Assembly (NCBI GenBank): GCA_028716525.1 | Contig: JAQUPQ010000001.1 | Location: 124,001 to 188,000 of the forward strand | Length of the DNA stretch: 64,000 nucleotides | Origin: Terriglobia bacterium | GTDB taxonomy: Bacteria > Acidobacteriota > Terriglobia > JAIQFV01 | Reading direction: 5' to 3' | Shown here: positions 21,036 through 26,648 of the stretch, in pieces | Position numbering within the stretch: the stretch's first letter is position 1 | Layout: every line of letters starts with the position of its first letter | The notes under the pieces: generated by a model | What the model was told of the DNA's origin: nothing | Databases searched by the model: none | What the model saw: the letters and a program-made list of their open reading frames with translations, nothing else | Position numbers and translations under genes: made by a program

Positions 21036-21983
21036 ATGATTCAAGATAAAAAAGACCGGTTCGAATCACGAATTAGGAACACGGTGGTAGAGTTGGTTCG
21101 TCATAGTACACAACCCCAAGAAATACTTCCGGCCGGGCTCCACAGCCCCACCGACATGGCGCCGCGTGAGATCTATCTCAAGATCGGACCCATTACTTTC
21201 ACTATCGAATCGCGCACCCGACTGTTGACGGAATTGCTCTACCGAGAATTAGGCGCCAGCATTGGAACAAAGGAGGAGTCCTCGCGACGGCTGATTTGCG
21301 ACAGCCAATGCGCGATGTATGCAAAGAGTTTCAACCCCTTCGAGAAACCATCCGTAGAGCCGCGATCCCATTATTGGGTTCTCAGCTCCAAGCAGGTGGA
21401 GGCCTCCTACTTTCCGCGTTATCGATTGGCGTGGGCTGCTCTTCCCGAGAACGCCCACTCCCTGCGCTGTCTGCTTCAAATGCTGTTCACTTTGTGGATG
21501 GAAGAACAGCAGGGACTTCTCGTCAGCGGATCGACGGTCGTGCACCACGGCATGAGCTACCTTCTTTTGGAGGAAACGAATCATCAACAGGCGGACCGCC
21601 CGACCCCTATCCAGCCGACGCTGCTGGGAAAAGAGATCTCGATGCTCGGACTTTCGGAGAAGGGTGAGTGTTATGCCTATTCCACACCCCTGGGCGACGA
21701 CGGCCTCGAAAAGCGTCCTGCCGAAGGAGCGCCACTCCAAGGAATTTTCCTGATTGGGCGCGATTCCACCGATTCCCCGCGGGTGATGTCGTTGGAAGAG
21801 GCAAGTTATTCCCTCCGTCGGTCAACTCTCTGTTTTTCGAAGGCTGGGGAGGTGTTCGAACGTATCAACGAACGCACTCAGGAAATTCTTGGCAAAATTA
21901 AAGCTTACCGAACTGCTGCCAATGGAAGCGAAGATTTCTGGAAAATCGGGCCAAGCCAGAACGCACCAGCTCCTGAAATGTAA
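21036..21983 (+). CDS. HprK/PEPCK-like protein without a P-loop (pseudo-kinase)
   Basis: 315-aa protein whose second half follows the layout of HprK-related kinases found in PqqD/nucleotidyltransferase clusters. It has a helix before the expected nucleotide site, GSTVVHHGMSYLLLEE (about 165-180), and the C-terminal segment 'TPLGDDGLEKRPAEGAPLQG' to 'FLIGRDSTDSPRVMSLEEA'. Where such kinases have GxxGxGKST after the hydrophobic strand, this protein has ETNHQQAD (180-187), so no Walker A exists. The family assignment is by eye and moderate. The ATG at 21036 is preceded by GGGAG/GAGGAAG. It is followed after 89 bp by an S24/S26-like peptidase gene. Confidence 0.5.
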   Translation: MIQDKKDRFESRIRNTVVELVRHSTQPQEILPAGLHSPTDMAPREIYLKIGPITFTIESRTRLLTELLYRELGASIGTKEESSRRLICDSQCAMYAKSFNPFEKPSVEPRSHYWVLSSKQVEASYFPRYRLAWAALPENAHSLRCLLQMLFTLWMEEQQGLLVSGSTVVHHGMSYLLLEETNHQQADRPTPIQPTLLGKEISMLGLSEKGECYAYSTPLGDDGLEKRPAEGAPLQGIFLIGRDSTDSPRVMSLEEASYSLRRSTLCFSKAGEVFERINERTQEILGKIKAYRTAANGSEDFWKIGPSQNAPAPEM

Positions 21984-22072
21984 TGCAGGAGAGTAGGCCC
22001 GGAAGCGGTATTCAAGAGGAGAATTGAAGAGCAGTTCTTTTAAATAATCCTAAGGCCCGGAGAGAAATTGTC

Positions 22073-22501
22073 ATGTCGCCTCAATATTTGAGTTATGCGC
22101 TGGTTCGTGACTTCGTAAAAACCCATCCCTACCGACAATTCCGCATGCGTTACGACGGCCGCTCCATGCAGCCCGCGCTCCAAGGCGGGGAGCTCCTGAC
22201 GTTGATCGCGGCGGATGGCGAGAATCTTTCAGAGGAAGATATTGTGCTGGCTCAAACCGAGGAGGGATTGCGTCTGTATCGCATCAAATTGCGGCGTGGC
22301 AGCTATTTTCTCTTGAAAGGCGACGCCCAACGCGAACCCGTGTCTCCCGTAGAACTGGATCAGATTTTGGGAAAGGTGGTGGCGCATCAACCCTACCCCA
22401 AAATCCGCAGAATGGGAGACCGCTTCAAGATGTGGCTCACGGGATGGTTGAGCACTCAAATCTGTGAATTCATATTGGAGAGCCAAAGCCGTGAGGTTTG
22501 A
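22073..22501 (+). CDS. S24/S26-family peptidase-like protein
   Basis: 142-aa protein resembling the catalytic domain of signal-peptidase-like S24/S26 enzymes. The nucleophile motif is GRSMQPAL (Ser31). The strand 'LYRIKLRRGSYFLLKGDAQ' (68-86) corresponds to the 'HRI...GD' region, and LGKVV follows. The histidine that acts as base in SipW-type members is Tyr69 here; Lys72 or Lys82 might substitute. There is no obvious N-terminal membrane anchor. The ATG at 22073 follows GGAGAG. It sits between the HprK-like and nucleotidyltransferase-like genes, a combination known from RiPP-like and HprK-related clusters. Confidence 0.65.
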   Translation: MSPQYLSYALVRDFVKTHPYRQFRMRYDGRSMQPALQGGELLTLIAADGENLSEEDIVLAQTEEGLRLYRIKLRRGSYFLLKGDAQREPVSPVELDQILGKVVAHQPYPKIRRMGDRFKMWLTGWLSTQICEFILESQSREV

Positions 22502-22541
22502 ATATTTGGTGGGCTCGCAATCCGTCGAACTGGAGTACGAA

Positions 22542-23714
22542 ATGCCGCTCCTAAACAGAGCCGGTTCAGAGTCACCCGGGGTCCACGAGCCCGCAGGGAT
22601 GGTCTCCTCTGCTCCCGCCGCCGGATCCGACACGAAAGCGTTGCTTCTGGCCGCCGCCAGCCCCTGCACGACCCGTTCGACTTGGCGGGAGGCACGTGCT
22701 CTGGCCTTGCGCGCTGACTGGAAAGTTTGGGAGTCGCTCGCCAAGAAACACGATCTTCTGCTCCTGGCCGAGGGACGCCTCCGAGAACTATCTTCCCTTC
22801 AGGCGGTCAAACACATCTTGACGGAATCTCGCAAAACCAATTTCCGAACGTTGCGCCACAATCTCGAACTCGACAATCTCACCGTGCAGTTGGCCCTTTT
22901 GATTTCGGAAGCCCGGTGCCCCGTCCTGTTGATTTCAGGAACACCTTTCGTCCGCCAATTTTATGGAGATCTCGGACTCCGAGAAGTTCACGAGGTTCAA
23001 TTGGTCATTTGGCGCGAACACCTGTCCCTGGTCTGCGATATTCTGGCTTCCAATGGATTTTTTAAAGAGGGCGAAGATTCTTCCGACGACGCCGCGAGGG
23101 GTAGTTCCTACTCGCACACCGTGCATGGCCGGACGATTCGAGTCCGGTTGCAAACCGACATTTCGGCGGCCTTGAATTGCCCGGAGTTAGAAGTCAGCCT
23201 TTGGCGGAGTGCCATTCCCTATTCAGAATCCGCAGCCACAGAAATGAACTGGTCGGAATTTGATCATCGACTCATTCGTCCAAATATTTTTGCCGCTTCA
23301 CCTGAACTTCAATGGATTGCCGCGTCGCTGCAGGCGGCCGTAAAAGCATTCGAGCCCTGGTGCACGATTGCCGACTTCTGCCAGGCCAGCATGGTCTTGC
23401 AACGAATTCTCAACTGGGAAGAGTTGGCTCAAGAAATTGAACGGTTAGGTTTGAAAAAGAGGATTGCCAGAACTCTCGAGGCCGCTCGACCGTGGGGGCT
23501 TACTCTCCCGGATTCATTCACCGAGGCATTCGGGCCCGCAACCTTTAAGCCACAAAAGCCTCTCCTGCCTGCAAAAGAGAAACCCGCGAATCCCCTGGAC
23601 TCCCCGTGGACGGAATCGCTTCTCGACGACAGAGCAGGTTTAACGTCGCCCTCTGATCTTCGGGGCATTTCCACGAAACTTCAACTCCACAAACGGCGGT
23701 CAGCCGTCGCCTAA
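22542..23714 (+). CDS. Nucleotidyltransferase-family (PF14907-like) protein with altered active site
   Basis: About 390 aa. The N-terminal helical half (ADWKVWESLAKKHDLLLLAEGRL) and the central strand 'CPVLLISGTPFVRQFYGDLG' match the layout of the uncharacterised nucleotidyltransferase family PF14907, where a KG motif is followed by R-x3-DxD. Here KG is SG (132-133) and the paired aspartates are Glu151 and Gln153 (REVHEVQLVIW). Metal-dependent nucleotidyl transfer is therefore doubtful. The ATG at 22542 has GGAG six bases upstream; a GTG at 22491 overlapping the peptidase stop is an alternative. It ends the three-gene cassette. Confidence 0.6.
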   Translation: MPLLNRAGSESPGVHEPAGMVSSAPAAGSDTKALLLAAASPCTTRSTWREARALALRADWKVWESLAKKHDLLLLAEGRLRELSSLQAVKHILTESRKTNFRTLRHNLELDNLTVQLALLISEARCPVLLISGTPFVRQFYGDLGLREVHEVQLVIWREHLSLVCDILASNGFFKEGEDSSDDAARGSSYSHTVHGRTIRVRLQTDISAALNCPELEVSLWRSAIPYSESAATEMNWSEFDHRLIRPNIFAASPELQWIAASLQAAVKAFEPWCTIADFCQASMVLQRILNWEELAQEIERLGLKKRIARTLEAARPWGLTLPDSFTEAFGPATFKPQKPLLPAKEKPANPLDSPWTESLLDDRAGLTSPSDLRGISTKLQLHKRRSAVA

Positions 23715-26304: not shown

Positions 26305-26433
26305 AAATCCTCCTTAGATTTATAAATGGACGGACGAGCAATGGCAGTGACGATCAACAACTTCCGTGAAAGCCTCTTGGGAAAGATCCTCTACAGGTCC
26401 GATCGACTCATCGATTGAGGAGGAGGGGAGATT

Positions 26434-26511
26434 TGGGGTGGGTGATGGGGATCGAACCCACGGCCACCAGGGCCACAACCTGGCGCTCTACCTAGCTGAG
26501 CTACACCCACC
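26434..26511 (-). tRNA. tRNA-His (GTG)
   Basis: Cloverleaf with anticodon loop TTGTGGC (anticodon GUG). The acceptor stem is GTGGGTG/CACCCAC, with the histidine-specific extra 5' G opposite discriminator C73. The 3' CCA is encoded. The TTCGATC T-loop and AGCTCAGC D-arm are present. It lies 60 bp downstream of tRNA-Arg on the same strand. Confidence 0.95.
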
Positions 26512-26571
26512 GTGAAGAACAAAATCCAAATACCAAATTCCAAACATATGGACCAAATCCACATTGAAAAC

Positions 26572-26648
26572 TGGTGCGCCCGGCCCGACTCGAACGGGCG
26601 ACCTGCGGATTCGAAGTCCGACGCTCTATCCAACTGAGCTACGGGCGC
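26572..26648 (-). tRNA. tRNA-Arg (TCG)
   Basis: 77-nt cloverleaf. The acceptor stem is GCGCCCG/CGGGCGC with CCA encoded, the anticodon loop CTTCGAA has anticodon UCG, and the T-loop is TTCGAGT. It is the promoter-proximal gene of a two-tRNA unit with tRNA-His. Confidence 0.95.

Follow-up and report, generated by a model that had tools for sequence, protein, structure and literature searches.

Three adjacent genes in the window, by which we mean the whole 64,000-nucleotide stretch of DNA that was analysed, encode proteins that resemble an HprK-like kinase, an S24/S26 peptidase and a nucleotidyltransferase and that have each lost active-site residues. Our preferred reading, to which we give a probability of about 0.55, is that these genes are what is left of a RiPP tailoring arm that has been dismantled, and that their proteins were retained for a long time in a non-catalytic role. 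An initial annotation of this DNA had described three intact frames at positions 21036-23714, and inspection of the open reading frames agreed: all three are uninterrupted, with no stop or frameshift, and the kinase-like, peptidase-like and transferase-like genes all retain coding-like GC periodicity (Table 1).

Table 1. Positions in the window of the three genes and of their altered or retained active-site residues.
Feature	Position	Strand	Basis
HprK-like pseudokinase, LppK-type homologue, 315 aa	21036..21983	+	Homology, predicted fold, syntenic orthologue in G001
Missing P-loop and D199K, residues 178-199: LLEETNHQQADRPTPIQPTLLGK replaces FSGVSGAGKTTISRLAPPDATLLTD	21567..21632	+	Alignments with relatives
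S24/S26 (SipW/LppS-type) peptidase-like protein, 142 aa	22073..22501	+	Weak PF00717 match, predicted fold, linkage elsewhere
Ser31 codon, nucleophile kept	22163..22165	+	Alignment
Tyr69 codon (TAT) for catalytic His	22277..22279	+	Alignment; equivalent to LppS H68
Val90 codon for conserved Asp	22340..22342	+	Alignment; matched to LppS D93 by spacing
NTP_transf_5 (PF14907, LppN-type) protein	22491..23714	+	PF14907 match; probable GTG start read from sequence
Ser-Gly for Lys-Gly motif, K148S	22935..22940	+	Alignment
Glu-Val-Gln for Asp-x-Asp metal ligands, D167E and D169Q	22992..23000	+	Alignment

Families and active sites of the three proteins

The initial annotation had read a kinase without a P-loop, a peptidase with Tyr for His and a transferase with SG and Glu/Gln, and alignments with relatives confirmed each of these changes. 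The kinase-like protein, which matched no Pfam or NCBIfam model and none of the HprK-related models TIGR04352, TIGR04355 and ScmC at E ≤ 5, is homologous to the P-loop kinases of related loci with e-values down to ~1e-11 outside its own family. The P-loop kinase fold is common to PEPCK and HprK, and an AlphaFold model of the protein built from the relatives' alignment (pLDDT 81, with low confidence in the segment of the expected P-loop) found its best match in PEPCK (E = 1.7e-7, TM only ~0.45). In the alignment the protein lacks the Gly/Gly/Lys of the P-loop as well as the Asp of the DEIS motif, and it retains 37% of the near-invariant residues of its family.

The peptidase-like protein matched PF00717 at an E of 5e-4 and 20.1 bits, under the gathering cut-off of 23.3, and its model from the relatives' alignment (pLDDT 82) matched LexA, UmuD, SpsB and SipA with e-values of ~4e-4 to 8e-4. 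The comparison of predicted structures proposed in the annotation therefore recovered the expected folds for both the kinase-like and the peptidase-like protein, and we rejected the idea that either has a fold foreign to the family named for it. Ser31, Met32, Pro34 and Asp84 are retained, together with 63% of the family's near-invariant residues, and the H68-to-D93 spacing of LppS suggests that Val90 occupies the site of D93. For the transferase-like protein the family assignment is based on PF14907 (NTP_transf_5; E = 1e-15, 58.5 bits, gathering cut-off 31.2); it retains 43% of the near-invariant residues, and a phylum-wide search with it returned remote matches only (≤32 bits). Residue loss in all three proteins thus extends beyond the active sites to other near-invariant positions.

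From its sequence context, the most likely start of the transferase-like gene is the GTG at 22491, where inspection showed a GGAG ~10 bases upstream; the gene would then overlap the stop of the peptidase-like gene (22501); these two genes are probably translationally coupled. Scans for promoters scored no better than chance, and those for terminators scored below it. Elsewhere in the window, the ORF at 26391-26633 was rejected as a conserved gene; it is spurious, and its apparent conservation comes from its overlap with the genes for tRNA-His (26434-26510) and tRNA-Arg (26572-26648).

Intact relatives in the class and known systems

We searched a set of 61 genomes of the class and afterwards one of 399, and 50 of the 399 encode relatives of the kinase. 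Linkage was counted at the 48 kinase loci outside the window's family, many of them on cut contigs: the peptidase family lies near the kinase at 43 and the transferase family at 23 (some contigs being cut), and clustering of the neighbours revealed a radical SAM/SPASM protein at 38 and PqqD at 33. This recurrence of the families bears out the kinship with RiPP, PqqD and HprK clusters that the annotation had suspected. The usual order is peptide, peptidase, kinase, PqqD and radical SAM, with the transferase close by. Every one of the 48 kinases has a P-loop, and the peptidase His and the transferase KG/DxD are near-invariant in the alignments; the annotation had envisaged a triad with the same altered residues in other genomes, and what we found are relatives whose active sites are essentially always intact.

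Next to these clusters lie short ORFs that encode one family of precursor peptides with the consensus KKPYxKPSFRxExVFETxALACGKxxxTQxxCxxxxKxS. Using a search pattern blind to the last residue, we found 31 precursors in 31 loci, and all 31 end in Ser, compared with 47 of 519 background genes. The precursors that were tested had no match among NCBIfam or Pfam models. An exported-looking protein of ~670 aa with a DWS motif also recurs ~2.2 kb upstream of the kinase at 22 loci (e.g. L027 1109-3112), and the one example tested had no Pfam match.

The linear polyphosphorylated peptide (LPP) RiPPs of Bacillota are associated with a SipW-type peptidase, an RRE, an HprK-like kinase and an NTP transferase, have the leader YxxPxVLxHQxIxFETxxS and are stated to be restricted to Bacillota (PMC13381572). 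In the LPP cluster LppA/K/B/S/D/N (PMC13381572), LppS, LppK and LppN are of the same families as the trio, and in the class loci the precursors share a YxxP...FET leader with LPP. Unlike LPP clusters, however, the window has no precursor, no RRE/PqqD and no recognised MsbA-like exporter of such a cluster, and its active sites are lost, while the class relatives add a radical SAM/SPASM enzyme and have a peptide with a C-terminal Ser and two Cys. In lasso peptides of the paeninodin/pseudomycoidin type, a kinase acts on the C-terminal Ser and a nucleotidyltransferase on the phosphate (PMC8498205). The likeness here lies in the pairing of an HprK-homologue kinase with a nucleotidyltransferase and in the class relatives' precursors, all Ser-terminated, but we recognised neither a lasso cyclase nor a B2 protease in the recurrent neighbourhood, and the window's proteins have no recognisable catalytic sites. 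SynChlorMet clusters (ScmC, ScmD, ScmE/F) resemble the class loci in their PqqD and radical SAM/SPASM neighbours, and the best NCBIfam match of an intact class-relative kinase was ScmC (6e-10, below cut-off). All scores to these SynChlorMet models were under the curated cut-offs, however, and none of the models recognised the peptidase or the PF14907 proteins.

Judged from their parts, the intact class clusters look like an LPP-type set with an additional radical SAM step, and homology to the LPP set suggests the functions of their enzymes. We found no description of an LPP accessory set combined with radical SAM/SPASM in the literature searched, and a search on SynChlorMet and on HprK with radical SAM gave nothing relevant. 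The cluster with a YxxP-leader, Ser-terminated, two-Cys peptide, peptidase, HprK-like kinase, PqqD, radical SAM/SPASM and PF14907 transferase (L020-L027, L066-L105) is apparently an undescribed type of RiPP cluster. The window's order is unlikely to belong to Bacillota, given the TolC-type outer-membrane efflux protein that it encodes, and the LPP accessory set may have a wider range than the Bacillota for which it was reported.

Gene loss and constraint within the window's order

Three genomes of the window's order were compared, namely the window's own, G001 and G002. The trio is flanked by TolC, STAS, HlyD and MFS on one side and by an M1 peptidase on the other. These flanks are syntenic, at 60-78% identity, and enclose three genes in the window, the kinase-like gene alone in G001 and no gene in G002. 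The TolC/HlyD/MFS efflux set that, with the M1 peptidase, adjoins the trio is thus also found in G002 without it, and the peptidase-like and transferase-like genes are present at this locus in a single genome. The annotation had further reported neither a precursor nor PqqD at the trio, and this held up: the YxxP...FET leader motif was detected nowhere in the window, the search of the window's own genome gave no precursor match at E ≤ 10, the three genomes of the order contained no convincing one, and PqqD occurs in the window's genome only on two other contigs (C20 and C29). On C20 it is part of a separate cluster (L028 8190-10639) that also has a P-loop HprK-related kinase and a PF14907 protein with KG and DxD intact. 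In that cluster the PqqD domain is joined in one protein with a TAT-like signal and a Cys-rich tail, which may make it a fusion of PqqD with its own peptide.

The kinase homologue of G001 is in the syntenic position and is 40% identical to that of the window. The P-loop is present in 48 of the 50 members of the kinase family and is missing only from this pair; a search for further kinases without one, across the 399 genomes of the class and all of the order, gave no others. At near-invariant sites the two proteins have the derived changes R148Q, A166S, R170H, A174S, F177L, T198G and F219L in common, and because they share these replacements the P-loop was probably lost before the two genera split. 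In the kinase tree they pair on a very long stem of 7.8 changes per site, on which descent and transfer are indistinguishable. Differences between the two genes at first, second and third codon positions are 0.52, 0.39 and 0.65, and dN is 0.71 against a saturated dS of 2.4. The kinase-like gene is therefore under constraint, but a weaker one than its neighbours, whose dN of 0.17-0.36 corresponds to amino-acid evolution two to four times slower.

These observations bear on the possibility that the trio consists of pseudogenes that have recently begun to decay neutrally, in a cluster that lost its purpose and whose genes have simply not broken yet. Such decay would agree with sister genomes that lack two or all three genes, with the many conserved positions changed besides the active sites and with the raised dN of the kinase, but it sits poorly with three genes free of stops and frameshifts and with a P-loop-less kinase that is intact in two genera and has clear codon-position constraint. 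We also ran a neutral simulation (3000 runs per gene) that asked whether the key residues were all lost before the first stop, an approximation in which the genes of today serve as the backbone and selection is left out. This occurred in 0 of 3000 runs each for the kinase and the transferase, and in 1.8% of runs for the peptidase-like gene (0.2% with indels). Plain decay is unlikely for the kinase and transferase because their active-site losses never preceded a stop in these simulations, and it is less firmly excluded for the peptidase-like gene; for the trio as a whole we consider recent decay improbable. Of the two findings that the annotation had said would together speak against its proposal, homologous clusters with intact catalytic residues do exist, whereas neutral decay is not indicated for the kinase and transferase.

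The annotation had suggested a dedicated and undescribed system of three non-catalytic proteins that act jointly today. Intact frames, the probable coupling of the second and third genes and the poor fit of neutral decay all speak for it, and a joint non-catalytic role is in this respect still conceivable. Even within the order, however, the three genes do not stay together, given that G001 keeps one gene and G002 none with the flanks in place, so a conserved three-gene system finds no support there and we regard this proposal as quite unlikely. Rather, the pattern fits long retention without catalysis combined with gene-by-gene loss; we infer the order of the loss events from the three genomes.

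A proposed tailoring arm under dismantling

If the trio is a dismantled tailoring arm, its ancestors would have been a signal-peptidase-like leader protease of the LppS type, an HprK-like Ser kinase of the LppK type and a nucleotidyltransferase of the LppN type that extended the phosphate. In the relatives, these three enzymes would act with PqqD and radical SAM/SPASM on the YxxP-leader, Ser-terminated peptide. At the site of the trio in the window's order, these partners and the peptide are missing, the three active sites are lost, and the trio genes themselves appear to be disappearing one by one. A non-catalytic role, most plausibly the binding of a peptide or protein partner, would have been kept for a long time and would now be in the course of being lost. 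We favour a long-lived role of this kind because the frames outlived the loss of the active sites and the pseudokinase persisted after two genera had diverged. The kinase-like protein would then be the core, and the peptidase-like and transferase-like proteins would be dispensable. It is doubtful, to our minds, that three RiPP tailoring enzymes were turned together into a non-catalytic complex that still binds such a partner and whose conserved core, in this order, is the pseudokinase.

Enzymes of altered chemistry, for instance a peptidase using Ser31 with another base and a transferase holding its metal through Glu/Gln, would account for the four residues kept in the peptidase-like protein and for the folds retained in both predicted models, but are very unlikely given a kinase without its entire P-loop and DEIS Asp, a transferase without its Lys and both Asp, and the inactivity of the H68A and D93A mutants of LppS, a published relative (PMC13381572).

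Streptococcus pyogenes SipA offers a precedent, in that it has retained the fold of a signal peptidase for a non-proteolytic role. It is a structural match of the peptidase-like model (TM 0.58) from another family and context, and its PDB title names it as a homologue of signal peptidases that is essential for pilus polymerisation. On the reading that we prefer, the trio would illustrate a RiPP tailoring arm in the course of dismantling, in which the enzymes are inactivated and their coding genes retained, and it would yield two or three candidate pseudoenzymes. The intact radical-SAM/LPP-like clusters of the class may be a more interesting result than the trio itself.
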